Shown one piece after another: positions 33,385-52,625 of a DNA stretch of 64,000 bases. The stretch is from contig NZ_CP069396.1 of NCBI RefSeq assembly GCF_016887565.1, positions 4,243,001 to 4,307,000 of the forward strand. Reading direction: 5' to 3'. This stretch comes from Archangium violaceum. GTDB taxonomy: Bacteria > Myxococcota > Myxococcia > Myxococcales > Myxococcaceae. A program made the position numbers and the translations under genes. The notes beneath the pieces are model-generated. The model saw nothing but the letters and a program-made list of their open reading frames with translations, did no database searches and was not told the origin of the DNA. Each line of letters begins with the position of its first letter. Within the stretch, counting starts at the first letter, position 1.

Positions 33385-36300
33385 ATGTTGGCGAGAATTC
33401 CTCAGTACAAGGTCCTCGAGGTGATCCACCAGGGGGAGATGCACACGCTGTACCGGGCCTCGAGGCTGGCCGACGGACTTCCGGTGGTCATCAAGGTCCC
33501 AGTCACGGCGCGCACGGACTCGCGAGAGGTGGTGCGGCTGGAGCGCGAGCTCGTGCTGATCCGGAGGTGCCAGAGCTCGTCTCATGTCGTGGATGCCATC
33601 GAGCTTCTGCAACTGCCGGGTATCGCCGCATTGGTCCTGGAGGACTTCCAGGGTCGCTCGCTCGATCGGATGCTCTCCGGCCCGCTCGAAATCCGCGCGT
33701 TCCTGAGGCTCGCGATTTCGATGGCGTCCGCCCTCGCCGATGTCCACCGCCACGAGATCGTTCATCTCGATATCAAGCCGGCCAACATCATCGTGAACGA
33801 CGCGACGGGAGAGGTGAAGGTCACCGACTTCGGAATCGCGTCGACCCTCCCGCTCGAGCACCGGTCCTTCCGCCCGGCGAGCACCGTGGAGGGCACGTTC
33901 GCGTACCTGTCGCCCGAGCAGACAGGGCGGATGAACCGCTCGGTCGATCACCGCTCGGACCTGTACTCGCTCGGCATCACGTTCTACGAGATGCTGGTGG
34001 GGGCGCTCCCGTTCTCGGCGGAGGACGTGCTGGGTTGGTTTCACTGCCACCTGGCGGTGGTTCCCCGCCAGGTGTGTGAGGTGAACGCGAGCGTGCCGGT
34101 GGCCCTCTCGCGCATCGTGGCCAGGCTGATGGCGAAGGCCCCCGAGGATCGGTATCAAAGCGCGGAGGGCCTGAAGGCGGACCTGGAGCAGTGCGCCGCG
34201 CGGTGGGATTCGGGCGCGGAGCTCGCCCCTTTCCCGCTCGGTGCCGCGGATGCGCTGGATTGGTTTCGCATCCCCGAGAAGCTCTACGGCCGGACGGACG
34301 ACGTGGCGGCGCTCCTGGACGCGTTCGATCGCGGCCTCAAGGTGGGAAGATGCGCGCTGGCGCTCGTCTCGGGGTATTCGGGCGTCGGCAAGTCGTCGCT
34401 GGTGAACGAGGTCTTCAGGCCGCTGGTGCGCGAGCGTGGCTTGTTCGCGTCCGGCAAGTTCGATCAGCTCAATACCGGGGGCCCGTACTCCGTCCTGATG
34501 TCCGCCCTCCGGCAATGCACCCAGCAGATCCTGGCCGAGGGCGAAGCGGAGACGGCCGTGTGGAAGGAGCGCATCCAGCGAGCGCTCGGTCCGAACGGCC
34601 AGCTCGTGGTCGACCTGCTTCCCCAGCTCGAGCTCATCATCGGAAGGCAGGCCCCGGTGGAGGAGCTGGGGCCGGCCGAGTCGCTGAATCGGCTCCACGA
34701 GGTCTTCGCCCATTTCTTCGGCGCCCTCAGTCAGGACCATCGCCCGCTCGTCCTCTTTCTCGATGACCTCCAGTGGGTGGATCCGGCAACGCTCGCCCTC
34801 CTCCAGCACGTCATCCCCCACCCGGATGCGGGCTGCCTCTTCGTGATTGGCGCCTACCGCGACAACGAGGTGACGCCCTCCCACCCGCTGATGATGGCGC
34901 TCGACTCGCTGCGCCGGGCGGAGGTCCCGATCACCGACATCGTGCTCTCGCCGCTCGGGCTCGAGCACATCCAGCAGCTGGTCGCGGAGACGCTGCACAC
35001 CGACGAGGCGAGGGTACTGCCGCTCGCGCGCCTTCTCGTCGACAGGACCGGAGGCAACCCGTTCTTCCTCACCCAGTTCCTCGGTACCCTCCACCGGGAG
35101 AAGCTCCTCCAGTTCGATGTGGCGACGCGCGAGTGGGTCTGGGAGCTGGCGCGGATCCAGGCCAAGGGCTTCACCGATAACGTGGTGGCCCTGATGGTCG
35201 CGAAGCTGAGGGAGCTTCCGCCCGCCACCCTGGACGCACTCAGGGTCGCCTCGTGCATTGGCAACACCTTCGATTCCGAGGACGTCTCCGGGCTGGTGCA
35301 AGAGTCCCCCAAGGAGCTCGAAGCGAATCTCCTCGACGCCGTCAAGGAGCGGCTGATTCTTCGCTTCGAGCATGCGTACAGGTTCCTGCATGATCGCGTC
35401 CAGCAGGCCGCCTATCTCCTCACCCCGGAGGAGCAGCGCGTCCGGCTACACCTGCGGATCGGACGGATGCTGCGCACGCGCCGGCCGTCAGCGGTGTTCG
35501 AGATCGTCAACCATCTCAATCTCGCGGCGGCACTGATCGACGGCCGAGACGAAGCGATCGAGCTGGCGCGGCTCAACCTGGAGGCAGGCGAGAGCGCGAT
35601 GCGGTCGGGTGCCCATGCGGCCGCGTTGAGCTACCTCGCCGCTGGTTGTGATTGCGTGGGCGAGGGCGGGTGGGAGTCCCATTACGAGCTGACCTACGCG
35701 CTCTCCTTCCAACAGGCTCAGTGCCAGATCATCAGCGGACAGCTCGGGGCCGCGGAGGCGAAGATCTCCACCCTCCTCACGCGCGCCCGGAGCCGGACGG
35801 AACAGGCCAACGTGCACCGCCTGAAGGTGGATCTCCACGGGACCCGAGGCGAGTTCCCCCAGGCCGTCGAGGCGGCGCTCTCGTGTGCGCGGCTGTTCGG
35901 GATCGAGCTGTCTCCACGGCCAACTCCCGAGGCGCTGAGGGCCACGGTGCAGGCCATGTGGGATGAGCTGGCTCGACGCAAGCTCGAGTCGATCGCGGAC
36001 CTGCCGCCGATGACGGACCCGGAGCAGAGGGCCCTCCTGGCGCTCTTCGCGGCGGTCCTGCCGCCGGCGTACTTCATCAACCCGGATCTGCACGATCTGC
36101 TCGCATGCCAGATGGTGGGTGCCAGCCTCCGCCACGGAAACGCGGACGTCTCCGTCATGGGCTACGTCGTCTTCGGGCAGGCGATCGGACATGTCCTCAG
36201 GAAGTGGCGTGAGGCGGTTCGTCTCGGCGCGCTCGCGGTCGACCTGATGGACAGGCGGGGCATCGTCGGGAGCCGGGCGAAGGTGTGCCTCGTCATCGGA

Positions 36301-38667
36301 GGCTTCATCAACCACCGGGTCCAACACCTCCGGGACGTGCTCCCGCTGTTCCAGGTCAGCTGGTCCGCCGCACGCGAGGCCGGAGAGCTCACCTTCGCCT
36401 CCTATTCCAGCATGAACATGGTGGTGTTCCGGTTCATGATGGGTGACCACCTCGAGGATGTCATCGCGGAGGCCGAGACCTCCATGGACTTCACCCGTCG
36501 CACGAGAAATGACGCGATCTGGGTGCCCATCGCGGATCTCCGAGAGGTGGTGGAGTGTCTGCGGCAGAAGACGGAGCCTCCCCCGGTGCCGCCGGACGTG
36601 GGGACCGGGCTGCGCGCCGTCCCGTTCATTTCGTTCATGTTCTACAGGTACCGGCTGCTCTGCGGGCTCATCTACGGAGACACCCCGGGGGCCGTGGAGA
36701 TGGCCCGGAAGGGAAGGGATTTCCTCGCTTCCTACACCGGCCAGATCGGCGTCGCGGAGTACCACTACCACACGGCCCTCGCGCTGGCCCGGCACCATGA
36801 CGCGGTGCCGCCCGAGGTGCAGCGGGAGTACCTCGGCCAGATCGAAGACAATCTGGCGGTGCTCCAGGAGTGGGCCGAGACGGGCCCCGAGAACCATGCT
36901 CATGCGCATGCGCTCATCTCCGCGGAGCTCGCCCGGCTCCGGGGGAACGTCGGAGAGGCGATGCGGCTGTATGAAGACGCCATCCGCCAGGCGCGCGAGA
37001 ATGGCTTCATCCAGAACGAGGCGCTCGCGTACGAGGTCGCGTCGGAGTTCTATCGGGCCCGTGGAATCGAGACCGTTGCCCTGGCGCACCTGCGCGAGGC
37101 CCGGCGCGCCTACCTGCAATGGGGTGCGCACGGCAAGGTGAAGCAGCTCGATATGAAGTACCCGCACCTGGTCAGGTCCGGTGCGAGCACCACCAGCGGC
37201 GGCACGAGCCCGGCCACGGACGAAGCGTTCAACCTGATGACGGTGGTGAAGGCGCAACAGGCGATCTCCAGGGAGATCGTCCTCGAAGGCCTGTTGAAGA
37301 CGCTGATGTGCATTCTCATCGAGAGTGCGGGGGCGGAGCGGGGTTGCCTCCTCCTGAGCCGTGACGACACCTTGTTCGTCGAGGCGTGGGCGGAGGTCGA
37401 GCAAGAGGAGATCAAGGTCGACGCCGCGCGGGTACCGATCGAGGGATCGGATCGCCTGCCCCTCTCCATCGTGAGCTACGTCAAGCGCTCGCTCGAGAGC
37501 CTCATCCTCGCGGACGCGGACGCCGACAGCAGGTTCGCCTCGGACGAGTACGTCGTGCGGACGAAACCCCGGTCCATCCTGTGCATGCCAGTGATGGGCC
37601 AGGCGAAGCTGGCGGGCGTCCTCTACCTGGAGAACAGGCTGGCCGCGGGCGTGTTCACACCGAGCCGGCTCGCGGTCCTCGAGGTCCTGGCGTCGCAAGC
37701 CTCGATCTCGCTGGCCAACGCGAAGCTTTACGCGAGCGTCCAGCAGGCCGAGGAGGCGCTGCGGCGATCTCACGACGAGCTCGAGCGGCGCGTCGAAGAG
37801 CGGGCGCGCGAGCTGCGGCGCGCGCAGGCCGAGCTGTTGGACACCGCGCGGCGCGCCGGAAGGGCGGAGATCGCCGCGGATGTGTTGCACAATGCCGGGA
37901 ACATCCTCAACAGCGTGAACACCTCGGCGGGACTCGTGGCATCCAAGCTGCGGCAGTTCCACGTGTCGAAGCTGGCCAGGGCCGCGGCCCTCCTGCAGGA
38001 GCACGCGGCGGACATCGGGGAGTTCCTGGTGAAGGATGAGGCTGGCAAACGGCTGCCCACGTACCTCACCCTGCTGGCGGAGACGATGCGGGAGGACCTG
38101 GATTTCACGCTGGGCGAGGTGGATTCCATGGTGGCGAGCGTGGAGCACCTCAACGAGGTGGTGCGGACTCAGCAGGCCTATGTCGGGGTCCTGGAAGCGG
38201 CGGAGTTGATCCACCCGGAGGATCTGCTGGAGAACGCATTGAGGATGAACACCCCCGCACTGGAGCCTCTGCGGGTGCGAATCATCAAGGACTACGCGGC
38301 GCTGCCGGCTCTCCTCCTCCAGAGGAGCAGGGTGGTGCAGATCCTGGCCAACCTCATCAGCAACGCCGCCTGGGCGCTGAGTGAGAGCGAGCGAGAGGCG
38401 AAGTGGATCAGGCTCGAGATCGAGGTGAAGGGGGAGCAGTCGCTGAGGATCTCCGTGGGCGACAATGGGGTGGGGATCGCGCCGGAGAACGTGGGGAAGC
38501 TCTTCCGCCCTGGCTTCTCCACGAGGAAGGACGGGCACGGCTTCGGGCTCCACAGCAGCGCCCTCACGGCGAAGGCCATGGGCGGTTCGATCCTGGTGGA
38601 GAGCGAGGGACCGGGCAGGGGCGCCCTGTTCACCCTGGAGTTGCCCCTGGTGAAACCCCCGTCTTGA
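33385..38667 (+). CDS. Hybrid Ser/Thr kinase - AAA ATPase - GAF - sensor histidine kinase
   Basis: 1760 residues, cytoplasmic. Domains: Ser/Thr kinase 8-265 (Lys37 in VVIKV; loop VHLDIKPANIIV with Leu in place of Arg in HRD; DFG at 148-150); AAA/STAND-type ATPase about 300-650 (Walker A GYSGVGKSS near 330-337; Walker B PLVLFLDDLQWVD near 455); TPR-like helical region about 700-1270; GAF domain about 1290-1400; coiled coil; histidine phosphoacceptor His1502 (ADVLHNAGNILNSV); HATPase_c 1600-1755 with NLISNAAWAL, GDNGVGI and GHGFGLHSSALTAKAMGG. There is no receiver domain, so a separate response regulator must exist elsewhere. This type is common in Myxococcales. It probably integrates nutrient or redox signals. 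Confidence 0.95.
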   Translation: MLARIPQYKVLEVIHQGEMHTLYRASRLADGLPVVIKVPVTARTDSREVVRLERELVLIRRCQSSSHVVDAIELLQLPGIAALVLEDFQGRSLDRMLSGPLEIRAFLRLAISMASALADVHRHEIVHLDIKPANIIVNDATGEVKVTDFGIASTLPLEHRSFRPASTVEGTFAYLSPEQTGRMNRSVDHRSDLYSLGITFYEMLVGALPFSAEDVLGWFHCHLAVVPRQVCEVNASVPVALSRIVARLMAKAPEDRYQSAEGLKADLEQCAARWDSGAELAPFPLGAADALDWFRIPEKLYGRTDDVAALLDAFDRGLKVGRCALALVSGYSGVGKSSLVNEVFRPLVRERGLFASGKFDQLNTGGPYSVLMSALRQCTQQILAEGEAETAVWKERIQRALGPNGQLVVDLLPQLELIIGRQAPVEELGPAESLNRLHEVFAHFFGALSQDHRPLVLFLDDLQWVDPATLALLQHVIPHPDAGCLFVIGAYRDNEVTPSHPLMMALDSLRRAEVPITDIVLSPLGLEHIQQLVAETLHTDEARVLPLARLLVDRTGGNPFFLTQFLGTLHREKLLQFDVATREWVWELARIQAKGFTDNVVALMVAKLRELPPATLDALRVASCIGNTFDSEDVSGLVQESPKELEANLLDAVKERLILRFEHAYRFLHDRVQQAAYLLTPEEQRVRLHLRIGRMLRTRRPSAVFEIVNHLNLAAALIDGRDEAIELARLNLEAGESAMRSGAHAAALSYLAAGCDCVGEGGWESHYELTYALSFQQAQCQIISGQLGAAEAKISTLLTRARSRTEQANVHRLKVDLHGTRGEFPQAVEAALSCARLFGIELSPRPTPEALRATVQAMWDELARRKLESIADLPPMTDPEQRALLALFAAVLPPAYFINPDLHDLLACQMVGASLRHGNADVSVMGYVVFGQAIGHVLRKWREAVRLGALAVDLMDRRGIVGSRAKVCLVIGGFINHRVQHLRDVLPLFQVSWSAAREAGELTFASYSSMNMVVFRFMMGDHLEDVIAEAETSMDFTRRTRNDAIWVPIADLREVVECLRQKTEPPPVPPDVGTGLRAVPFISFMFYRYRLLCGLIYGDTPGAVEMARKGRDFLASYTGQIGVAEYHYHTALALARHHDAVPPEVQREYLGQIEDNLAVLQEWAETGPENHAHAHALISAELARLRGNVGEAMRLYEDAIRQARENGFIQNEALAYEVASEFYRARGIETVALAHLREARRAYLQWGAHGKVKQLDMKYPHLVRSGASTTSGGTSPATDEAFNLMTVVKAQQAISREIVLEGLLKTLMCILIESAGAERGCLLLSRDDTLFVEAWAEVEQEEIKVDAARVPIEGSDRLPLSIVSYVKRSLESLILADADADSRFASDEYVVRTKPRSILCMPVMGQAKLAGVLYLENRLAAGVFTPSRLAVLEVLASQASISLANAKLYASVQQAEEALRRSHDELERRVEERARELRRAQAELLDTARRAGRAEIAADVLHNAGNILNSVNTSAGLVASKLRQFHVSKLARAAALLQEHAADIGEFLVKDEAGKRLPTYLTLLAETMREDLDFTLGEVDSMVASVEHLNEVVRTQQAYVGVLEAAELIHPEDLLENALRMNTPALEPLRVRIIKDYAALPALLLQRSRVVQILANLISNAAWALSESEREAKWIRLEIEVKGEQSLRISVGDNGVGIAPENVGKLFRPGFSTRKDGHGFGLHSSALTAKAMGGSILVESEGPGRGALFTLELPLVKPPS

Positions 38668-38746: not shown

Positions 38747-39274
38747 ATGAAGAGCGTGATTTCCACCAACACGGCGCAGTTGGAGACAGTCGAAGCGAGC
38801 AGCGATGTCCACGAGCAGTTGATCACCTTGTTACAGCACCATAACGCCACCTTCCGGGTCATGGAGCATCCGCCCGAGGGGCAGACAGAGCTCGCCAGCC
38901 TCCTTCGCGGGCACTCGCTGTCCCAGGCCGCGAAGTCGCTGGTGTTGATGGTGAAGCAAGGCAAGCGCGTGAGCCGGTACTTCCTCTGTGTCGTGCCTGG
39001 CGACTATCGGGTGGACATGGCCATGGTGAAGCGGTTGGTCAGTGGAACGTACGCCGCCCTCGCGCCCGCGAACCACGCCGAGCGACTGACCGGCTGCACC
39101 ATGGGCGCGGTTCCTCCTGTCTCGCTCCACCCGGACCTGGAGCTGCTCGTGGATCCCAAGCTGCTGGAGAACCAGGAGATCGTCTTCAACTCGGGCCGCC
39201 TGGACCGCTCCATCTTCCTTGCCCGGGATTGCTACGTCCGCATCTTCAAGCCCTGGGTGTCCCGCATCACTTGA
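38747..39274 (+). CDS. YbaK/EbsC-type aminoacyl-tRNA deacylase
   Basis: 175 residues of the YbaK/ProX superfamily: HHNATFRVMEHPPEGQT opening, SLSQAAKSLVLMVKQGK with the conserved catalytic-site Lys, YFLCVVPGDYRVDMAMVK, and GCTMGAVPPVSLHPDLELLV, the G-x-x-x-G-x-V-P-P segment. These proteins hydrolyse mischarged tRNAs such as Cys- or Ala-tRNAPro, or related substrates. It follows the giant kinase by 79 bp; a GC-rich hairpin with TTTT at about 38717-38733 may separate them. It converges with the four-gene biosynthetic operon, and a role there (for instance clearing a mis-acylated tRNA) is only a guess. Confidence 0.85.
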   Translation: MKSVISTNTAQLETVEASSDVHEQLITLLQHHNATFRVMEHPPEGQTELASLLRGHSLSQAAKSLVLMVKQGKRVSRYFLCVVPGDYRVDMAMVKRLVSGTYAALAPANHAERLTGCTMGAVPPVSLHPDLELLVDPKLLENQEIVFNSGRLDRSIFLARDCYVRIFKPWVSRIT

Positions 39275-39358: not shown

Positions 39359-40171
39359 TCAGCTCCAGATCACCGCTTCATCCAGCCCATCCCCAGGCAA
39401 CCCGATGAAGAAGCCCAGCGTCAGCCGATTCGAGCCGCCCACCCGCTCGATGGCGTGGTAGTAGGTCGGGTTGAGCAGATACACGTCGCCCGTGTGCGGT
39501 TTGAAGACGTTGCAGGCATGCCCCCGGACCACCTGCTCGTCGTACCCCAGGCCTCCCGGGATTTTGTAGACCTCGTCTTCCGGATGCCACTGCTTGCGGT
39601 AGTGGTACAGCTCGCCTCCGGTGTCGCACTCCTGGATGCATACCACGCAGCTCAACTGCTGCTTGAGCCGTGCCAGCAGCAGCGGGGTGCTGGCCGCATC
39701 GCGCATGACGTTGTCGTTGTGCAAGGGATTGCGGACCCCGTCGGCATGAATCCGCACGATGCACTCGGCGTAGCAGCGGCCGTCTGGCTCGCGGGCGGTC
39801 TCGAACGAGCGCAGCCCCAGCACCTCCTTGAGGCGTGCTCGCACGCGCTCCGCCAGGTCGAACTGGATGCGCTTGAAGAGCGCTCGGGTCTCGTCTGCCT
39901 CCTCGAAGTAGCGGGCCGGGTCAGGCAGGAACCTGGCCAGATAGGGGCCCAGGGTGGTGAGGGTTCCGTTGCTGTAGCGCGTGGTGGAGGCACGCGCTAG
40001 CTGGGCCTCGAGGAGCTGCTGATTGGTGTCGAAGACACCACGAGGCAACAGGTCCTTCAGCACCACCACGCTGGTGTCACCATCGACGAGCTGCCCGAGC
40101 ACGTGGGGACCCAGGCGTGCGCCAGGTCCCGCGGGGTAGACGACACTCTTCCAGCTTCCCATCTCTTGCAT
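39359..40171 (-). CDS. Fe(II)/2-oxoglutarate-dependent oxygenase, last gene of the PP-loop/ATP-grasp operon
   Basis: 270 residues. PLHNDNVMRD supplies the H-x-D metal triad, the distal His lies in PTYYHAIERVGG, and SNRLTLGFFIG supplies the Arg that binds 2-oxoglutarate. A long N-terminal part (about 150 residues) precedes the double-stranded beta-helix core. It lies 21 bp after the glutaminase gene. In the pathway it probably hydroxylates, epoxidises or desaturates the product of the ligases. Start 40171 is preferred because GGAG is 9 nt upstream; GTG 40177 is the alternative. Confidence 0.85.
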   Translation of the reverse strand: MQEMGSWKSVVYPAGPGARLGPHVLGQLVDGDTSVVVLKDLLPRGVFDTNQQLLEAQLARASTTRYSNGTLTTLGPYLARFLPDPARYFEEADETRALFKRIQFDLAERVRARLKEVLGLRSFETAREPDGRCYAECIVRIHADGVRNPLHNDNVMRDAASTPLLLARLKQQLSCVVCIQECDTGGELYHYRKQWHPEDEVYKIPGGLGYDEQVVRGHACNVFKPHTGDVYLLNPTYYHAIERVGGSNRLTLGFFIGLPGDGLDEAVIWS

Positions 40172-40192
40172 GTGCACGTTCTCCGTCCTCGC

Positions 40193-40903
40193 TCAATCAA
40201 GGGGAATTTCGAAAATCCGCTGGGGGGGCAATGGCTCCCAGCGCTCGGGGGGCCCGAGCGCGGGGATGATCTCCGAGGAGAAGATGAGGGACTCCGGCCC
40301 GACCAGCCGGTGCATGGTGAAGTAGCGAGGGCAGGGTGTCGGGGAGGGCGTCCAGTGAATGAGGTAGGCCCGTCTGGGATTGACCACGATGGCATTGCCC
40401 GAGGTGCCTCCGGGCGGCAGCGCTCTCAGCTTCTCGAGCGTGGTGTGCGCATCCAGCGAGTCATGCCGCGCGTCCACCACGTACTCGAAGTACTCCCCCG
40501 TATCGAAGTGGGAGCGCTCTCGCCCCAGCAGCGTGTACACCGAGGGCAGGTAACCATTGTGCATGAAGTACCAGGGGCCCGCCGGGCCGTGTTTCTCCAA
40601 GGGGTGGGTGAACTCCAGGCCCCGGGTGTGAGGCAGGGTGGCGTGGCGCACATGCAAGGCCATGAAGTTCGTCTCCACCTGGGCGATGGAAGACGCCTCC
40701 ACACTGCGAGAGATGGGACGTGTGTCGCGGTGCACCGCCAGCCGGTGCGCGGCACCGGCCTCCCTCCACACCGCCCCCCAACCATTGGGATGGCAGCGGG
40801 TGGGACCCTCGTGGTCCGCCGTGTGGCCCTCGCTCATGGAGATGGCCGCGGAGACGAGGGAACGAGCGCGGAAGCGTCCCTGGGCCAGGATGAGACGGCA
40901 CAC
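40193..40903 (-). CDS. Class II glutamine amidotransferase (EgtC/YafJ-like)
   Basis: 236 residues. The GTG start is followed directly by Cys2 (VCRLILAQG), the N-terminal nucleophile of class II glutaminases after removal of the first residue. Other family motifs are HPNGWGAVWRE, LHVRHATLPHTRGLEFTHP (the H-V-R-x-A-T and the H-P), and WYFMHNGYLP (the F-x-H-N-G). It most resembles the GATase_4 group that includes EgtC (a gamma-glutamyl hydrolase of ergothioneine synthesis). There is no synthetase domain, so it should pass ammonia to one of the ligases beside it or act as a hydrolase. It starts 2 bp after the ATP-grasp gene ends. Confidence 0.85.
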   Translation of the reverse strand: MCRLILAQGRFRARSLVSAAISMSEGHTADHEGPTRCHPNGWGAVWREAGAAHRLAVHRDTRPISRSVEASSIAQVETNFMALHVRHATLPHTRGLEFTHPLEKHGPAGPWYFMHNGYLPSVYTLLGRERSHFDTGEYFEYVVDARHDSLDAHTTLEKLRALPPGGTSGNAIVVNPRRAYLIHWTPSPTPCPRYFTMHRLVGPESLIFSSEIIPALGPPERWEPLPPQRIFEIPLD

Positions 40904-40905
40904 GG

Positions 40906-42237
40906 TCAGGCTCCCAACCGCGCCGAGATGCAGCCGGCGAGAGCGTGGCGCACCGAGTCCAGGGTGCGGCCGTAGACGGTGATGCGGCCCGTGAATCCGA
41001 CATGGCGCAGCTTGTCCGAGGCCAGGGTCTCCTCGTCCGCGGCGGGGCTGGAGGGAGCGGGGGGCGGAATGCGCCGCACTTCCCCTCGCACGCCCTGGGA
41101 GAGGAGCCGCTCGCCCGCGCGCAGCTCGTCCTCGGAGGTGCACGTCACCTGGCCCACGCAGGCGCCGGGGCCCTCGCGTACCGGAGCCAGCTCCGGAGCA
41201 CGCTCGCCCAGGCAGGCCTCGAAGACCATGTCCGCCCACTTCATCCCGGTGGTCTTCTCCACCAGCGCCACGAGTCCTCCGCCGGAGAGGCGGAAACCCA
41301 TCTCCACGAAGAAGGCACCGCGAGCGTTCTGGATGATGTCCACATGGAAGGGGCCCTGGCGGTAGCCAGTGGCGTCCAGACAGGCCTGGGCGAGCGCACG
41401 CAGGGCCGGAGCGGCCTGAGCCCCGTGGGTCGCCAGGTGACCGGCCTCCCGGAAGCCGCGCAGCCCGGTGTCTGGCGTCACCTCGTGGGTAATGAACTTC
41501 TCGCAGGTGGTGAGGAGGTAGGCGCGGCCCTCCCAGGCCAGGCCCTGGAGGGAGTGCTCACGCCCGTCGATGAACTCCTCGATGAGCACCCGGGTGAAAG
41601 GGCTTCCATCGTAATTGGCGAGCGCCCCCAGCCGCGTCAGGGCCTGGTCGCGCTGCGAGGCGTCCTCCACGAGGAAGACCCCCAGGCCTCCGCCACCGTT
41701 GGAGGGCTTGATGACCTGGGGGAATCCCACGCGAGACAGGGCTTCCGCGGCCTCCGGGGCACCCAGGGTGAAGCGGGCGTAGCGCGGCTGAAGTACCTCG
41801 GGGCGCTTGCGTGTGAGCGCGTCCCGCTGCCCCCACTTGTCCACCGGGCGGAAGGCGCCGTCCACCTGGTGGCCACGGGCGCGCGGCCCCAGCAGGGCCG
41901 CGAGGGTAAAGGCGCTGGAGACGTATCGCTCGAAGCCAGCCAGCACCAGGGCCGTCCCCGCGGAGTGCCCATGCGACTCCAGCGCCTGGAGGACCTCGTC
42001 CGCCCGCGCGGGGTGCGCCACCGGCAGCTCCTCGTCGAAAGGCCGGCGGCCGAGCTGCTGGCGCCAACGTAGATACGCGGGCGTCTCGATGAGCAGGGCG
42101 CGCATGCCTCTCTGGCGCGCGGCGTCGAGGTAGGGGTCCAACCCGTCCCGGGTCGCACCGACCTGGACGAAGACTCGTGGGGTGGGGGACTTGGAGGGGA
42201 GCAGCATGGGCAGGTCACCGGCCGGAGAGGAGCTCAT
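40906..42237 (-). CDS. ATP-grasp ligase
   Basis: 443 residues. An N-terminal Rossmann-like part (RVFVQVGATRDGLDPYLDA) is followed by the ATP-grasp fold: VIKPSNGGGGLGVFLVED (glycine loop), VLIEEFIDGREHSLQGLAWE, FHVDIIQNARGAFFVEMGFR with the metal-binding Asp/Glu, and LSGGGLVALVEKTTGM. The pattern is that of amino-acid/peptide ligases such as dapdiamide- and bacilysin-type enzymes, which join carboxylates to amines through an acyl phosphate. It overlaps the PP-loop gene by 23 bp, and the glutaminase starts 2 bp after it. ATG 42207 is an alternative start. Substrates unknown. Confidence 0.85.
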   Translation of the reverse strand: MSSSPAGDLPMLLPSKSPTPRVFVQVGATRDGLDPYLDAARQRGMRALLIETPAYLRWRQQLGRRPFDEELPVAHPARADEVLQALESHGHSAGTALVLAGFERYVSSAFTLAALLGPRARGHQVDGAFRPVDKWGQRDALTRKRPEVLQPRYARFTLGAPEAAEALSRVGFPQVIKPSNGGGGLGVFLVEDASQRDQALTRLGALANYDGSPFTRVLIEEFIDGREHSLQGLAWEGRAYLLTTCEKFITHEVTPDTGLRGFREAGHLATHGAQAAPALRALAQACLDATGYRQGPFHVDIIQNARGAFFVEMGFRLSGGGLVALVEKTTGMKWADMVFEACLGERAPELAPVREGPGACVGQVTCTSEDELRAGERLLSQGVRGEVRRIPPPAPSSPAADEETLASDKLRHVGFTGRITVYGRTLDSVRHALAGCISARLGA

Positions 42238-43699
42238 TCACCACGGGCCCGTTGGCGGCGTGGCGCGTCTGGATGGTTCGCTTGTGCGGATCCCGCTCCA
42301 GGATGGCGCCGATGAGCCCCTTGTCCTCCTCGGGGCTCGCCGGGACGAGCGGGCGTTGGTAGAGGGTGCGAAGCTGCGAGAGGCTCAGGCCACTGAGCCG
42401 CTCCAGGGAGTGCTGGAGCCCACGGCTGGCAGCGTGCACCTCGCCTCCGCGCAGGAGCGCGTGGAGGTCCTCGAGGTGCCGGGCCAGCGAGGGCTGCTCG
42501 CGCGAGAGGTAGTGCGCCAGCCCTTGTCCCGTTCCCGCGAAGGGCGAGTAGACCATGCAGACGAGCTGCTCCTCGCTCAGCCCGAAGGAGTCCAGGGCGA
42601 AGGCCCCCATCGCGGTGCGCATCCGGGCCACGCCCGCCGCGTCCGCGTAGCGCTTCACCATCTCGTCGATGAGCGCCTGGGGAAACTGCTTGTGGCGCAT
42701 CAGGCCGACCGCGAAGCTCACGTACTCCTGGATGCCCTCGGCATAGGTCCTCCCGTAGAGACGCTCACACTTGAGTCCCCGCAGGTGCGCCATCAGCGCC
42801 GGATTGCCGCAGTCCGACTCCGTGAAGCTGAAGGCGATGGCGTCGAACTCGAAGCCAAGGTACTCGGTGAGCAGCCTCCAGTGGCTCGCGGCGTCGTAGG
42901 CGGTGTCGTCGTAGATGGAGAAGAAGGCCATGCCCTGGCGCACGCCCTTCTCCACCCGCCGGGCGTGGATCGCTTGCGTCGAGTCATCGCCGTGGATGTC
43001 GCGGAAATACGCCTGGGAGATGTTGTCCGTCGCCTCGAGGAAGCCCCTGAAGCCGTTGCCCTCCACGGAGGACAGGCCATACCGCCGGGCCAGCCGGTGT
43101 ACCCAGACGGAGTAGGCGCGCTGCTCCTTGCGCGAATCTCCCGTGACGATGAGGTCCACCCCGCCCGCATGGGAAGCGGCCAGGCCGAAGGCGTTGACCA
43201 TGCTGAGGTTGCAGGCATTGCAGAACGTGGGCCGCGCGTCCGCCCGCGTCCGGTGGCCCGTCATCAGGATGTCCTCGCGGTTGCGCTGGACGACCGCCTT
43301 GCCCAGGGCCGCATCCACCTGGAAGGGCTGGACCTCGTTGCCCTCGACCAGGAGGGGCTCGCAGCCCGGATCCTCCAGGATGCCCAACGCCTTGTACGTG
43401 CGGTGGATGTTCTCCATCACCGCCCGGGGCATTCCGGCATGCCGGTTGGTCACCACCCGCATCCGAAACGTGCTTCCGTAGACCTGGAAGAGCAGCAGCT
43501 GGATGCCGCGGACGAATGCCAGCATGTAGGAGCTGTCCTTGCCGCCGCCGTAGGCCACCAGGACGACGTTCTTCTCGAGCGCGCCCGGGTCCGGGAGTGC
43601 CGCGTACAGCTTGAGCGCACACCGCATGACTCCGTTGATCTGAGCGGGAGTCAGAAAGGTCCTGAGCTGACGAAATGCCTCCTCACGCACGTGCCGCAT
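42215..43699 (-). CDS. PP-loop (adenine nucleotide alpha-hydrolase) ATPase with CxxC
   Basis: 494 residues, first gene of the operon. VVLVAYGGGKDSSYML at about 45-60 is the S-G-G-x-D-S PP-loop (first Ser replaced by Gly51). ARPTFCNACNLSMVNAF places a C-x2-C pair at 160/163, as in thiolases such as TtcA or N-acetyl sugar amidotransferases, and VTGDSRKEQRAYSVWV follows. The last 200 residues are helical and unlike any family I know. The chemistry should be adenylation of an oxygen or carboxyl group with replacement by N or S. With the free class II glutaminase two genes away, this looks like a split asparagine-synthetase-type amidotransferase. ATG 43699 follows GGGAGG. Confidence 0.8.
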   Translation of the reverse strand: MRHVREEAFRQLRTFLTPAQINGVMRCALKLYAALPDPGALEKNVVLVAYGGGKDSSYMLAFVRGIQLLLFQVYGSTFRMRVVTNRHAGMPRAVMENIHRTYKALGILEDPGCEPLLVEGNEVQPFQVDAALGKAVVQRNREDILMTGHRTRADARPTFCNACNLSMVNAFGLAASHAGGVDLIVTGDSRKEQRAYSVWVHRLARRYGLSSVEGNGFRGFLEATDNISQAYFRDIHGDDSTQAIHARRVEKGVRQGMAFFSIYDDTAYDAASHWRLLTEYLGFEFDAIAFSFTESDCGNPALMAHLRGLKCERLYGRTYAEGIQEYVSFAVGLMRHKQFPQALIDEMVKRYADAAGVARMRTAMGAFALDSFGLSEEQLVCMVYSPFAGTGQGLAHYLSREQPSLARHLEDLHALLRGGEVHAASRGLQHSLERLSGLSLSQLRTLYQRPLVPASPEEDKGLIGAILERDPHKRTIQTRHAANGPVVNELLSGR

Positions 43700-43878: not shown

Positions 43879-44886
43879 CTACGTCGCGAACCGCTTCCGG
43901 TAATCCCTCGGCGAGATGGAAAGGTTGCGCTGGAAGGTCACCCGCATCCTTTCCTCGTTCCCGAAGCCGCACACACGGGCGATCTGATCGACGTTGCGCT
44001 TCGACTCCTCCAGCATCCTCTTGGCCGCCTCCAGCCTCAGGATTTCAACGGCCTTCGCCGGGGTGCGGCCGGTCTTCTGCTTGTAGACGCGCGCGAAGTT
44101 GCGCGGGCTCATGCTGGCTCTCGCGGCCAGCGTCTCGACCGTGAGGTTGTCGCTGCCCAGGTTGTCCGAGATCCACAGGTGCAGCTCATCGAAGGCGGCG
44201 CTGTCCTTCGTCTGCGACCGCAGCAGCTCGCTGAACTGCGACTGCGCGCCAGGCCGCTTCAGGAAGACGACCAGTTCCCTTGCCACCTTCATGGCGATGT
44301 CATGCCCATGGTCCGCCTCCACCAGGGCCAGGGCGAGGTCGATGCCCGCACTGACGCCGGCTGAGGTCCACACGGAGTCTTCACGGACGAAGAGCGCGTC
44401 GCGGTCGAGCTTGATCGAGGGGAAGCGCTCACGCAGCAGGTCGCACATGGCCCAGTGTGTTGCCGCGCGCTTTCCGTGAAGCAGTCCGGCTTGCGCCAGC
44501 AGGAAGGTGCCACTGCAGACCGATGCGGTGCGGCGGGTCGATTTCGCCTTCAGCCGCAGCCATTCGAGCAGTTGCCCCGAGCGGGCCAGCGCCTGTTCGA
44601 TGTTCGGCGAGCCGGGAACGACGAGGGTGTCCACCTTGACTCGCGTGAACGCGGCGAGCGGCGACGTCTGTAACGCGACGCCTTCCGCCGTCCGCACCAG
44701 CCCGCCGTCCAGGCTCACCGTGTGGCGGATGTACCCGGGCCCTCCGCGCTCCGCCAAGGCCTTCGACGCCGCCCAGAACACTGTCTGGGGCCCCGTCAGG
44801 TCCAGCAACCCCATGTCGGGAAAGGCGACGAAGAGCACGGTGCGCTGCCCGCCGGAAGTTGGCGGAAATTCCGGGTTATCTGTCAT
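43879..44886 (-). CDS. GlxA-like transcriptional regulator (DJ-1/PfpI plus AraC domains)
   Basis: 335 residues. The N-terminal DJ-1/PfpI-like domain has TVLFVAFPDMGLLDLTGPQT, VDTLVVPGSPNIEQAL and the nucleophile-elbow Cys in TASVCSGTFLLAQAGLL, then RAATHWAMCDLL and WTSAGVSAGIDLALALVE. The C-terminal AraC domain has two helix-turn-helix motifs, NLTVETLAARASMSPRNFAR and VDQIARVCGFGNEERMRVTF. ATG 44886 is chosen. It is divergent from the NmrA-like reductase with a 52-bp spacer, so it probably regulates that gene. Confidence 0.9.
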   Translation of the reverse strand: MTDNPEFPPTSGGQRTVLFVAFPDMGLLDLTGPQTVFWAASKALAERGGPGYIRHTVSLDGGLVRTAEGVALQTSPLAAFTRVKVDTLVVPGSPNIEQALARSGQLLEWLRLKAKSTRRTASVCSGTFLLAQAGLLHGKRAATHWAMCDLLRERFPSIKLDRDALFVREDSVWTSAGVSAGIDLALALVEADHGHDIAMKVARELVVFLKRPGAQSQFSELLRSQTKDSAAFDELHLWISDNLGSDNLTVETLAARASMSPRNFARVYKQKTGRTPAKAVEILRLEAAKRMLEESKRNVDQIARVCGFGNEERMRVTFQRNLSISPRDYRKRFAT

Positions 44887-44938
44887 GGCTGCCAGAGCCT
44901 TCCATCCGTACGTTCCCGCCGTCAACTGAGAGGCAATC

Positions 44939-45688
44939 ATGAAAATCGTAGTCATCGGGGGCACGGGCCTCATCGGAACGAAGCTGGTGAAGAGGCTTCG
45001 CGGGCAAGGCCACGAGGTGGTGGCGGCGGCGCCCAGCTCGGGCGTCAATACCCTCACGGGCGAGGGCCTGGCGGAGGCGCTCGCGGGCGCGCGGGTGGTC
45101 GTCGATGTAGCGAACTCACCGTCGTTCGAAGACAAGGCCGTGCTGGAGTTCTTCGAGACCTCGGGACGCAATCTCCTGGCGGCGGAAGAGAAGGCCGGCG
45201 TGAAGCACCACGTCGCGCTGTCGGTGGTCGGCACCGATCGGCTTCTGGGGAGCGGCTACTTCCGCGGCAAGATGGCGCAGGAAAAGCTGATCACCGCCGG
45301 CAAGATCCCGTACACCCTCGTGCGCGCGACGCAGTTCTTCGAGTTCATGGGCGGCATCGCCCAGGCGGGAGCGGAAGGGGAGACGGTGCGCCTTTCCACG
45401 GCGCTCATGCAGCCCATCGCGTCGGACGACGTGGCGGACGCGGTGGCCGAGGCGGCGCTGGGCGCGCCGGTCCATGGCATCGTCGAAGTGGCCGGGCCGG
45501 AGCGTGTGCGCCTCGTCGACGTGGTCCAGCGTTACATGAACGCGAAGCAGGACGGGCGCAAGGTCATCGCCGACGCTCACGCGCGCTACTTTGGCGTGGA
45601 GCTGGACGACAGAGCGCTCACGCCGGGCGACAACGCGCGTGTCGGGCCAACGCGGTTCGAGGAGTGGCTCCGCCGTTCCGCGGCGTAG
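44939..45688 (+). CDS. NmrA-like NAD(P)-binding SDR-type oxidoreductase
   Basis: 249 residues of the atypical short-chain dehydrogenase group: VVIGGTGLIGTKLVKRL is the nucleotide-binding G-G-T-G-x-I-G, VVVDVANSPSFEDKAVLEFF follows, and YFRGKMAQEKLITAGKIPYT gives a Y-x-x-x-K-like pattern with LVRATQFFEF after it. Close relatives are annotated as NAD(P)H-binding or NmrA-like proteins that sense redox state or reduce quinones. GAGAGG precedes the ATG by 6 nt. Divergent from its probable GlxA-like regulator. Confidence 0.88.
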   Translation: MKIVVIGGTGLIGTKLVKRLRGQGHEVVAAAPSSGVNTLTGEGLAEALAGARVVVDVANSPSFEDKAVLEFFETSGRNLLAAEEKAGVKHHVALSVVGTDRLLGSGYFRGKMAQEKLITAGKIPYTLVRATQFFEFMGGIAQAGAEGETVRLSTALMQPIASDDVADAVAEAALGAPVHGIVEVAGPERVRLVDVVQRYMNAKQDGRKVIADAHARYFGVELDDRALTPGDNARVGPTRFEEWLRRSAA

Positions 45689-49607: not shown

Positions 49608-50660
49608 TCACCTCACGTCCTCGACTTCCGCCCAGCGCGGCCGGTGCAGGATCCGCACGGCCATGCACGCGATGTTCGCCCCCGGCCCGGTACCGAGCAG
49701 CAGGAGGTTGTCCCCCGCGTTCAGCTCGCCGGAGACGAGGAGGTGGTCCAGCGAGAGCACCTGGTCGCTGGCGCCGACGTGTCCGATGGTGCGGCCGTAC
49801 TCCCAGGTCAACCTGGACATGGGCAGTCCAAGCGGGACCGCGGCGCGCTCCCGCACCCGCTCCTCGGACCAGTTGACGAAGGCGACCCGGGTGATTGTGG
49901 ACATGTCCAGGCTCGCCTCCCGGAGGGTCTTGTCGACGACCTCCAGCAGGGTCCTGGCCATCGTCGTCGCCAGTTCTCGCGGGTCCGTGCCCGTGGTCGA
50001 GAACCACTGCTCCTTGGCCGTCGCGAGGTCGACCTTGGTGCCCAGGGACACCGCCGGCGGGAACAGGGGGGCCGATCCCCGGTGCCTCTCCTCGTACTGG
50101 GGCAGTGTCACCGAGTTGATCGACTCCAGGCGTGCGAAACCGGTGTTCCTGGTGAGCAGCAGCGCGCACGCACCGTCGCCGAACAGGGAGTGCGGGCTGG
50201 ACCGCCAGCGGTCGAACAGCGGGGAGTTGTAGTTGTCCGCCGCGGTGATCAGGGAGGCCGTGTGCTCCGGCGCCGCCATCAGGTGAGCCGCGGCCAGCTC
50301 GCAGGCGCTGAACAGGCCCATGCAGCCCTGCCGGACCTCCGCCGCGGTCGCCTGTCCGGCGCCGGTGTGCCGCTGGATGTAGAACTGGGGGCTCCAGCTG
50401 TGGGGTCCCTGGTACCAGGTGCTGACGTACAGGAGGAGGCTCAGCGCCGCCGGGTCCTGGCCGGCGCGACGCATCGCCTGCCTGCTCGCCCGGAGCGCCA
50501 TCTCCGGCGCGGGTAGTTCGCCCGCGATCGGGACTCCCGTGATGCCGTACCGCCTGGCCTCGGTCTCGCCCAGATGTCCCTGGGCCACGGCCCACTCGAC
50601 CGGCACCCGGTCGGGAAGGTGGACCCCGGTCGCACTGATGAACACGCCTGGTGTCTTCAT
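49608..50660 (-). CDS. KAS III-like acyltransferase (3-oxoacyl-ACP synthase III family)
   Basis: 350 residues with the thiolase fold. The nucleophile is Cys113 in VRQGCMGLFSACE. The FabH His position (usually in H-Q-A-N) reads FVNWSEERVRE with Asn263, and the FabH Asn position (N-x-G-N-T-x-A-S) reads YGRTIGHVGASD with His294, so the Cys-His-Asn triad seems rearranged, as in ChlB3/CerJ-type acyl transferases that make esters instead of C-C bonds (from memory). Its start overlaps the ligase stop by 4 bp. It probably uses an acyl thioester produced by the AMP ligase. Confidence 0.85.
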   Translation of the reverse strand: MKTPGVFISATGVHLPDRVPVEWAVAQGHLGETEARRYGITGVPIAGELPAPEMALRASRQAMRRAGQDPAALSLLLYVSTWYQGPHSWSPQFYIQRHTGAGQATAAEVRQGCMGLFSACELAAAHLMAAPEHTASLITAADNYNSPLFDRWRSSPHSLFGDGACALLLTRNTGFARLESINSVTLPQYEERHRGSAPLFPPAVSLGTKVDLATAKEQWFSTTGTDPRELATTMARTLLEVVDKTLREASLDMSTITRVAFVNWSEERVRERAAVPLGLPMSRLTWEYGRTIGHVGASDQVLSLDHLLVSGELNAGDNLLLLGTGPGANIACMAVRILHRPRWAEVEDVR

Positions 50661-52207
50661 GAGATGTCCCTGTCCGCCCAGTACGGTGCGCGCAGCTCCC
50701 GCTTGAGCACCTTGCCGGTGGGCGCCTTCGGCAACTCGGCGACGAACTCCACCGAGCGTGGTTTCTGGTAGGAGGCCAGGTGCTTGCGGGCGACGTCGAT
50801 GATGTCCTCCGCTGTCGCTGGCCGGTCCGGTCTGAGCACCACGAAGGCCTTCACCGACTCTCCCCACTGCTCGTCGGGCACCCCGATCACCGCGCATTCC
50901 AGTACGGCCGGGTGTCTGCCGATCGCCTCCTCCACCTCGACGCTGTAGATCTTCTCCCCACCCGAGATGATCATGTCCTTCAGTCGATCGACGATGTACA
51001 GGTAGCGCTCGTCGTCCCAGGTGGCCACATCGCCGGTCCGCATCCACCCGTCCCGGATGGTGGCCGCGGTCAGGTCCGGCCGCCGGAAGTAGCCGAGCAT
51101 GTTGGCCTCGCCGCGGACCACGATCTCGCCGGGAGTCCTGCCGTCGCGCGGCACGTCGTGGCCGTTCTCGTCGACGACCCGGATCCGGGTGCCGAAGCCC
51201 TCGCGGCCACAGGAGCGCAGCCGGTGCGGGTGGCGCCCCCGCAGCGCGTCGCGGTGGTCCTCCTGGGACAGGAACGACATGGTCGCTCCTTCGGTCTGCC
51301 CGTAGCCCTGGATCAACCCGCACGGGAAGGCCTCCGCCACCGCGCGCACGATCGCGCTGGGCATCGGGCCGCCGCCGTACTGGATGTTGCGCAGACTCGA
51401 CAGGTCGTAGGTGTCGAACCCCGGCACCGCCAGCATCCAGTTGAGCATCGTGGTGATGCCGAGGAACGCCGAGACCCGCTCCTGCTCGATGACCTCCAGC
51501 GCCTGCCGGGCGTCGAAGTTCATCAGCACCACGGGGCAGCCGTGGGCCAGGTAGTTCATCGAGAGCACCACGGGGATGTGGAACATCTGCCCGGTGAGCA
51601 GGTAGACGTCCGAGGGCACGATCCGCTCCGCCACCGTCTGGTTGAGCATCCCAGCGGCCGCACTGCGATGGGAGTGCACCACGCCCTTGGCCGCTCCGGT
51701 CGTGCCGCCGGTGTAGAGGATGAACCAGGGGTCGGTATCCTGAACCTGTTCGCTCCAGGGCGGCTCGGCATCCGGCGCCGAGGCGATGAGCTCCTCGTAG
51801 CTGCCATCCCCGGAGAGTCCACAGTGGAGCAGGCGCACCAGGTCGACCGTCCGGCCCAGGTCCTCGGCCACGTGCCGGAACTCGGCCGAGGCGACCAGGA
51901 CGGCGGGTTCGGCGTCGGCGACGAGTGTGCGCAGCGCCTCGGTGGACAGCCGCCAGTTCAGCGGCTGCAGCACCAGGCCCGCGCGGCCCACCGCGAAGTA
52001 GAGCTCCTGGTACTCGATGCTGTTGCGGCTGAGCACGGCCACCCGGTCACCGGAGCGCAGTCCCAGTGCCCGCAGGCCGTTGGCCAGCTTGCGCACCCGG
52101 GTGTCCAAGGTGGCCCAGTCGATGCGCCGCTGGTGGGTGATGTCGACCAGCGCGGTTCGCCGGGGCGTGAGGGCCGCCCACTTGGCGGGGATCATTCCGA
52201 GATTCAT
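50657..52207 (-). CDS. Acyl-CoA/acyl-ACP synthetase (AMP-dependent ligase)
   Basis: 516 residues of the ANL superfamily: FILYTGGTTGAAKGVVHSH (motif A3, about 163-180), GYGQTEGATM (A5), GWMRTGDVATWDDERYLYIV (A7) and the C-terminal catalytic Lys in PTGKVLKREL. The active-site order fits medium/long-chain acyl or aryl acid ligases. It lies between the SnoaL-like and KAS III-like genes, 10 bp after the former and with a 4-bp ATGA overlap to the latter, so the set acts as one pathway. Substrate unknown. Confidence 0.9.
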   Translation of the reverse strand: MNLGMIPAKWAALTPRRTALVDITHQRRIDWATLDTRVRKLANGLRALGLRSGDRVAVLSRNSIEYQELYFAVGRAGLVLQPLNWRLSTEALRTLVADAEPAVLVASAEFRHVAEDLGRTVDLVRLLHCGLSGDGSYEELIASAPDAEPPWSEQVQDTDPWFILYTGGTTGAAKGVVHSHRSAAAGMLNQTVAERIVPSDVYLLTGQMFHIPVVLSMNYLAHGCPVVLMNFDARQALEVIEQERVSAFLGITTMLNWMLAVPGFDTYDLSSLRNIQYGGGPMPSAIVRAVAEAFPCGLIQGYGQTEGATMSFLSQEDHRDALRGRHPHRLRSCGREGFGTRIRVVDENGHDVPRDGRTPGEIVVRGEANMLGYFRRPDLTAATIRDGWMRTGDVATWDDERYLYIVDRLKDMIISGGEKIYSVEVEEAIGRHPAVLECAVIGVPDEQWGESVKAFVVLRPDRPATAEDIIDVARKHLASYQKPRSVEFVAELPKAPTGKVLKRELRAPYWADRDIS

Positions 52208-52217
52208 CGAGAGGCCA

Positions 52218-52625
52218 TCAGTAGGGGAGGTCGAGCTCGATGTGCCGGGCGCGCAACCGCCAGGACTCCCCGGCCTGGACCACCTCGTCGGTGTAGGTCC
52301 CGGTGGACAGCACCTCGAGGCGCCCATCCCGCACCGAGAGCAGTGTCAGGTACGACCGCGCGGTGGCCGTGCCGGGACCGGAGGGGTCAACGACCAGGTT
52401 CGTGCACACGTGCCGCCTGCGGTCGTCCTGCGCCGCGGCGGAGTCCCGCATCAGGCGCATGATCTCCGTGTGTCCCCGGAACGGTCCGGCCAGGTCGCCG
52501 CCGGCGACTCGCAGGGTCAGCGACGCGTCCGGGGTGAAGCACTCGACGAGCGCGTCCCAGTCGCGGGTGTCGTAGGCCAACGCGTACCTCGCCACCAGGT
52601 CGGCGATGGACTCGCGAACGGACAT
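52218..52625 (-). CDS. SnoaL/NTF2-like protein
   Basis: 135 residues of the SnoaL-like (NTF2) cone fold: SIADLVARYALAYDTRDWDA, LVECFTPDASLTLR, GPFRGHTEIMRLMRD and TSTGTYTDEVVQAGESWRLR with RARHIELDLPY at the end. Such proteins are dehydratases, isomerases or oxygenase-like enzymes of polyketide and aromatic pathways. ATG 52625 has GGAGG 7 nt upstream; it overlaps the stop of the 37-codon ORF as TGATG. It is the second gene in the operon with the ligase and KAS III. Confidence 0.85.
   Translation of the reverse strand: MSVRESIADLVARYALAYDTRDWDALVECFTPDASLTLRVAGGDLAGPFRGHTEIMRLMRDSAAAQDDRRRHVCTNLVVDPSGPGTATARSYLTLLSVRDGRLEVLSTGTYTDEVVQAGESWRLRARHIELDLPY

Follow-up and report, generated by a model that had tools for sequence, protein, structure and literature searches.

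Genes and distribution of the cluster

The window, a stretch of 64,000 nucleotides from Archangium violaceum (NZ_CP069396.1, positions 4,243,001 to 4,307,000), carries four tightly packed minus-strand genes for a PP-loop protein of the AANH type, an ATP-grasp ligase, a class II glutaminase-type N-terminal nucleophile (Ntn) amidohydrolase and an Fe(II)/2-oxoglutarate (2OG) oxygenase (Table 1). The first-pass annotation had read them as one operon; all of the open reading frames were present, with the described gaps of 2 bp between the ATP-grasp and glutaminase genes and 21 bp between the glutaminase gene and the oxygenase start at ATG 40171. However, the 23-bp overlap given for the PP-loop and ATP-grasp genes holds only when the ATP-grasp protein starts at ATG 42237. 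A start at Met11 (ATG 42207) is equally possible and leaves a 7-bp gap, and since the ATP-grasp homologues align only from residue 14-23, the overlap is uncertain. The catalytic motifs were recovered as listed, namely GGGKDSS and C160-x2-C163 in the PP-loop protein, the ATP-grasp motifs, Cys2, HVRHAT and MHNG in the glutaminase, and H151-N-D153 in the oxygenase. A YbaK-like gene, convergent with the oxygenase gene and separated from it by 84 bp, had been missed and also belongs to the set.

Table 1. Genes of the cluster in the window
Gene product	Position	Strand	Remarks
PP-loop (AANH) protein	42215-43699	minus	494 aa; PP motif 51-56; invariant C160, C163, C297
ATP-grasp ligase (ATP-grasp_4)	40906-42237	minus	443 aa; start ATG 42237 or ATG 42207
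Class II glutaminase-type Ntn amidohydrolase, free-standing (GATase_4)	40193-40903	minus	236 aa; GTG start; Cys2
Fe(II)/2OG oxygenase, WelO5 family	39359-40177 (GTG) or 39359-40171 (ATG)	minus	ATG start at 40171 likely
YbaK-type stand-alone aminoacyl-tRNA editing deacylase	38747-39274	plus	fifth conserved cluster member

The order PP-loop, ATP-grasp, glutaminase, oxygenase was found by tblastn of the neighbour proteins in the window and in seven further genomes belonging to two phyla, as the first-pass annotation's idea of a cluster would lead one to expect. Because the order was kept at protein identities of about 45-73% across Myxococcota and Streptomyces, the cluster is not a chance arrangement; two of the eight loci (L004 and L006) are very close relatives of each other. 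Each of the eight loci has a homologous ATP-grasp gene in the corresponding position. The YbaK-type gene accompanied the four-gene set in every locus, close behind the oxygenase gene, and in the homologous operons it was co-directional and the last gene. An EamA-type exporter gene was present in 6/8 loci: it lay between the oxygenase and YbaK genes in both other myxobacteria and nearby in four Streptomyces loci, while L005 had a transporter of the major facilitator type instead. The best NCBIfam model for this exporter was the O-acetylserine/cysteine exporter, with a score under the cut-off.

The PP-loop family is rare and patchily spread. The protein occurred in 3/195 Myxococcota genomes, and a genome-wide peptide scan found homologues at 58-62% identity in three Streptomyces-group genomes. 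Among 392 genomes of the Streptomyces order 13 had a full-length match, and two further five-gene loci (L031 and L034) came from this set; a sample of 395 genomes from the wider class added only two PP-loop loci. Plasmid searches returned only generic relatives of the ATP-grasp protein, weak matches to the oxygenase, and for the glutaminase a single orphan in Embleya (L041) with the partner genes absent nearby. Taken together, the five genes are a real, patchily distributed biosynthetic cluster without its own non-ribosomal peptide synthetase (NRPS) or polyketide synthase (PKS), and the small cluster free of both that had been proposed is thus conserved across eight genomes. No described pathway with the five-gene set was found in the open-access full texts searched, and the pathway is likely undescribed, as had been suggested.

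The flanking genes for a sensor kinase (33385-38667) and a GlxA-type regulator (43879-45234) were excluded from the cluster, since neither was recovered next to the other loci. Elsewhere in the window, on the minus strand, a gene for a 3-oxoacyl-ACP synthase III-like protein adjoins an AMP-binding ligase gene (49608-52327), possibly a small separate pathway, and another gene (62566-63963) encodes a product with four MopE-type putative metal-binding repeats.

The PP-loop protein and its cysteines

The PP-loop protein had no match in Pfam at E<=1 or in the NCBIfam and PHROG scans, including the asparagine synthase family (PF00733) and the N-acetyl sugar amidotransferase (NASAT) model TIGR03573 at the same threshold. 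The phmmer and profile searches against PDB gave no meaningful match, and in the NCBIfam scan none of the four operon proteins came near any cut-off. Across 18 homologues, down to 42% identity, the PP-loop motif GGGKDS (51-56, of the SGGxDS type) was invariant and the sole invariant cysteines were C160, C163 and C297, that is, a CxxC pair and a distant third cysteine. This arrangement recalls the [4Fe-4S] ligands of sulfur-inserting AANH enzymes, which are Cys142, Cys145 and Cys233 in NcsA (PMC10067955) and C154, C157 and C284 in the thioamide synthetase CtaC (PMC6772006). The CxxC and the third cysteine lie 137 residues apart in the window protein, compared with 130 residues in CtaC and some 88 in TtcA-like proteins. 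With comparison sets drawn from myxobacterial genomes, hhalign placed all three cysteines in register with four CtaC-spaced AANH proteins (95% probability, E=2.9e-8), and probabilities were lower for TtcA-like proteins (87%, PP loop only) and zinc-type NASAT (59%). A single cysteine (C27) stands ahead of the PP-loop, and the zinc tetracysteine motif of NASAT (PMC10607449) is consequently missing. In two of the CtaC-spaced loci (L065 and L066) the three-cysteine AANH domains lie inside long open reading frames with an adenylation-domain-like tail.

The predicted structure was confident (pLDDT 86). In whole-chain VIA alignments the top match was the NASAT 8wex (Z 14.1, 293 residues, rmsd 5.1), followed by a tie of FAD synthase, NcsA (9.9) and GMP synthetases. 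With the catalytic domain alone, however, the two leading Foldseek hits were NcsA, a [4Fe-4S] thiolase, and the sulfurtransferase 5ztb (probability 0.99-1.00, E 2e-3 to 5e-3). The VIA alignments end at model residue 298, which corresponds to NcsA 233 and TtuA 223, at or adjoining the third cluster cysteine, and 8wex has no cysteine at the positions of the family's CxxC and third cysteine. By position, the invariant cysteines thus correspond to the three [4Fe-4S] ligands known from sulfur-inserting AANH enzymes, and Fe-S ligation is predicted from sequence and model. The cysteine register, the Foldseek ranking and the lack of these cysteines in NASAT speak for an Fe-S enzyme that inserts sulfur rather than for an amidotransferase, without proving it; the protein is probably an AANH enzyme of this kind, from a family absent from Pfam and NCBIfam.

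The family also occurs beyond the five-gene cluster: 12 loci, of different cluster types, have the PP-loop homologue but no glutaminase. One type (class B) is represented by a Methylobacter plasmid (L009:10336-15744), where the homologue stands with an AsnA-like protein, the B12-binding and E subunits of a glutamate-mutase-like enzyme and EamA, and by L028:2837-13052, where the same core is joined by two ATP-grasps, an SsuD-like monooxygenase, a flavin reductase and a TauE exporter. Another (class C), in actinomycetes (L030, L035, L036, L040, L070 and L071, and L037 with fewer genes found), carries combinations of HMGL aldolase-like and FAA-hydrolase-family proteins, an adenylation-carrier didomain, an AsnB-type amidotransferase, a thioesterase, a short-chain dehydrogenase/reductase (SDR) and EamA. 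L035 and its relatives also encode a stand-alone protein with an editing domain of the leucyl-tRNA synthetase (LeuRS) type, and the product of these clusters is possibly a leucine-like antimetabolite. In a third type (class N: L029, L032 and L033) the gene lies beside NRPS-type genes, and in L032:6137-10918 the PP-loop domain is fused C-terminally to a condensation-adenylation-thiolation module, which fits the action on a carrier expected of a CtaC-like enzyme. In a tree of 20 PP-loop proteins classes B and C formed supported clades, and class A, the type found in the window, formed one weakly supported group (67/45) split into a myxobacterial and a streptomycete part. Two loci found with the Methylobacter protein (L038 and L039) were set aside as a different system, having only the N-terminal PP part with a degenerate motif. 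These two (L038:5939-11303 and L039) carry genes for a cupin, an FAD amine-oxidase-like (DAO) protein and a Lys/Orn N-monooxygenase, a combination that resembles hydrazine-forming gene sets.

Partner enzymes and the proposed pathway

The ATP-grasp protein matched Pfam ATP-grasp_4 at 39.8 bits and the dapdiamide synthase DdaF model NF041595 at 43.5 bits, where the cut-off is 840. The parallel drawn earlier with dapdiamide-type pathways is therefore a loose one: an ATP-grasp ligase does stand with an Fe/2OG enzyme, but the ligase falls far short of the DdaF cut-off and the oxygenase is one of the WelO5 group (PF22814, 82.6 bits, within the family). With numbering from ATG 40171 the oxygenase residues are H151-N-D153, H239 and R249, and H151-x-D153 aligned with H164-x-G166 of WelO5. 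Because an aspartate sits where the WelO5 halogenase has glycine, hydroxylation or another oxidation is likelier than halogenation. The alternative H142-A-D144 was ruled out, as D144 is Asn in one homologue. The glutaminase belongs to GATase_4 (PF13230, 27.5 bits, cut-off 23), and C2, R86, N116-G117 and the glutamine-binding D134 were invariant in eight sequences; its score with EgtC, the ergothioneine gamma-glutamyl hydrolase (TIGR03442), was 22.5 bits, far under the cut-off of 218.65.

A search for the glutaminase together with the oxygenase in the 195 Myxococcota genomes found only the three PP-bearing genomes and one other, G073, from the same family as the window genome. There the two genes lie side by side with no PP-loop homologue, so the pair is portable and does not depend on the PP-loop protein. 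Its neighbours (L085:4265-10515) encode a dehydroquinate-synthase-like cyclase, a cupin, an SDR, a glutamine-synthetase-like ligase, a FemAB-like protein, a DegT aminotransferase, a carrier protein and a PKS. Both contexts would make sense if an amine-masking ligase, either ATP-grasp or glutamine-synthetase-like, worked with a hydroxylase and with an Ntn hydrolase for unmasking.

The YbaK-type protein falls in the tRNA_edit family (PF04073, 76 bits, cut-off 25.5). Since it scored only 47.8 bits with the Cys-tRNA(Pro) deacylase YbaK/EbsC model (TIGR00011), under the equivalog cut-off of 153.25, its substrate is not fixed by family. The window genome has one further YbaK-type match, a weak one (24% identity). 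A precedent is CtdA, a stand-alone canavanyl-tRNA deacylase that guards against an amino-acid analogue (PMC10018355). The YbaK type in class A and the LeuRS-editing type in some class C clusters suggest that tRNA can be mischarged with the products.

We propose that the five genes form a portable cassette for a small, exported, amino-acid-like product, which would combine Fe-S sulfur insertion, a mask-hydroxylate-unmask sequence and a YbaK safeguard; as a whole this scheme is put forward tentatively, as quite possible and somewhat short of probable. The PP-loop protein would use ATP to activate a carbonyl group, of an amide or a carboxylate, and sulfur carried on a [4Fe-4S] cluster held by C160, C163 and C297 would be inserted to give a thioamide or thio-acid-type group, a chemistry like that of TtcA, TtuA, NcsA and the closthioamide enzyme CtaC with a small amino acid as the substrate. 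The ligase would mask an amine, the mask being for instance a gamma-glutamyl or aminoacyl residue; the masked substrate would be hydroxylated by the carrier-independent WelO5-type enzyme, and the mask would be taken off by the Ntn amidohydrolase of glutaminase fold. The product, a sulfur-bearing small amino-acid derivative and perhaps a thioamide, may be exported via EamA where this is present, and the YbaK-type deacylase would clear tRNA mischarged with it. The sulfur-related neighbours in L028 (the SsuD-like monooxygenase, flavin reductase and TauE exporter) were counted in favour of a sulfur chemistry.

Several observations weigh against this scheme. The cluster has no gene for a sulfur donor, no EamA gene of its type lies within the window, and a class II glutaminase shares the operon with the PP-loop gene. 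The highest VIA Z of all was to NASAT, an ammonia-using enzyme (14.1 for the whole chain, 11.8 for the domain), with the sulfur-inserting AANH enzymes lower at Z 8-10 and tied with GMP, NAD and FAD synthetases; the Foldseek E-values were weak, 2e-3 at best. The CtaC-like group (L063-L066) was labelled by cysteine spacing alone, and zinc can also be bound by CxxC cysteines. The masking logic draws on the single context of L085.

The glutaminase in the operon, with Cys2, R86, N116, G117 and D134 intact, would fit a split amidotransferase or amidine synthetase. In such a system the PP-loop protein would adenylate a carboxylate or amide, and ammonia from the glutaminase would convert it to the amide or amidine, in the manner of asparagine synthetase or NASAT. 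A split amidotransferase akin to asparagine and beta-lactam synthetases was what the first-pass annotation had inferred, and besides the top VIA match to 8wex, it agrees with the weak hits to human asparagine synthetase in Foldseek. However, the PP-loop and glutaminase genes each occur independently: the glutaminase is kept beside the oxygenase in L085, and the 12 loci with the PP-loop gene but no glutaminase include several with an AsnA- or AsnB-type amide-forming enzyme of their own. In addition, neither PF00733 nor TIGR03573 matched, the tetracysteine motif of NASAT is missing, and 8wex has no counterpart of the family's CxxC and third cysteine. We regard the inferred amidotransferase as unsupported and unlikely. 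The same pairing with a potential amide-forming enzyme (glutaminase, AsnA-like or AsnB) in every major context would also suit a dehydration-type chemistry, in which a primary amide supplied by one of these enzymes is activated by ATP and water is eliminated, as in nitrile formation, or exchanged for a nucleophile, the cysteines binding a structural metal. QueC is an AANH precedent for nitrile-type chemistry; it does appear in the Foldseek list of the catalytic domain, but only in 50th place, and the cysteine pattern and the nearest structures point to Fe-S thiolases, so that we consider this chemistry rather improbable. YbaK and EamA are, moreover, common housekeeping-type families, and one might suppose that the PP-loop protein is a subunit without activity or with a regulatory role and that the cluster serves primary metabolism or stress repair, such as the editing of damaged amino acids, with no natural product made. 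The patchy spread (3/195 and 13/392 genomes), the distinct cluster types, the fusion to an NRPS module and the invariant catalytic motifs all fit secondary metabolism instead and make this explanation very improbable.

Beyond the five-gene cassette, the family might represent new Fe-S thio-synthetases in four or more types of biosynthetic cluster (Myxococcota, Actinomycetota and Gammaproteobacteria), making sulfur-substituted amino acids, thioamides for instance, that are taken for protein amino acids and charged to tRNA, with producers surviving through in-cluster editing enzymes of the YbaK or LeuRS-editing type depending on the clade. We hold this wider generalisation to be doubtful. Sulfur-insertion enzymes for small natural products, those forming thioamides among them, are rare, and a PP-loop family lacking a Pfam or NCBIfam model points to several cluster types that are unexplored, including one common to myxobacteria and Streptomyces, and offers a concrete handle for genome mining. 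If the editing enzymes served self-resistance, producers would be guarding themselves by correcting mischarged tRNA of their own, and one could predict from the kind of editing enzyme which amino acid is mimicked by the product.

Comparison with known systems

One of the closest parallels to the PP-loop protein is CtaC, the closthioamide thioamide synthetase (PMC6772006), which likewise has a PP-loop, a CxxC with a distant third cysteine and a natural-product context, and which was compared by ligand spacing rather than by sequence. However, CtaC comes from an anaerobe and acts on carrier-bound closthioamide intermediates, whereas the window cluster has no carrier protein. The [4Fe-4S] tRNA thiolases TtcA, TtuA and NcsA share the AANH fold and, judged from where the structural alignments end, three equivalently placed cysteines, but they act on tRNA, TtuA and NcsA have extra zinc sites, and identity is about 12-17%. 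NASAT (WbpG/WbuX; 8wex) gives the best overall structural match and differs in the cysteines, with its own zinc motif before the PP-loop and none of the three found here. Asparagine and beta-lactam synthetases also combine a class II glutaminase with a PP-loop domain, whereas in the window these are separate genes, each found elsewhere without the other.

Similar differences apply to the partner enzymes. The oxygenase shares its Pfam family with the carrier-independent Fe/2OG enzymes WelO5 and AmbO5, but the aspartate at the halogenase glycine points to a hydroxylase type. The dapdiamide pathway resembles the cluster in joining an ATP-grasp ligase (DdaF) to an Fe/2OG enzyme without NRPS elongation, although it has no counterpart of the PP-loop protein, the glutaminase or YbaK. 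Finally, CtdA is a stand-alone editing protein directed against a toxic amino-acid analogue, as the YbaK-type protein may be; however, it has a B3/4-type fold and comes from bacteria exposed to the analogue, not from a producer.

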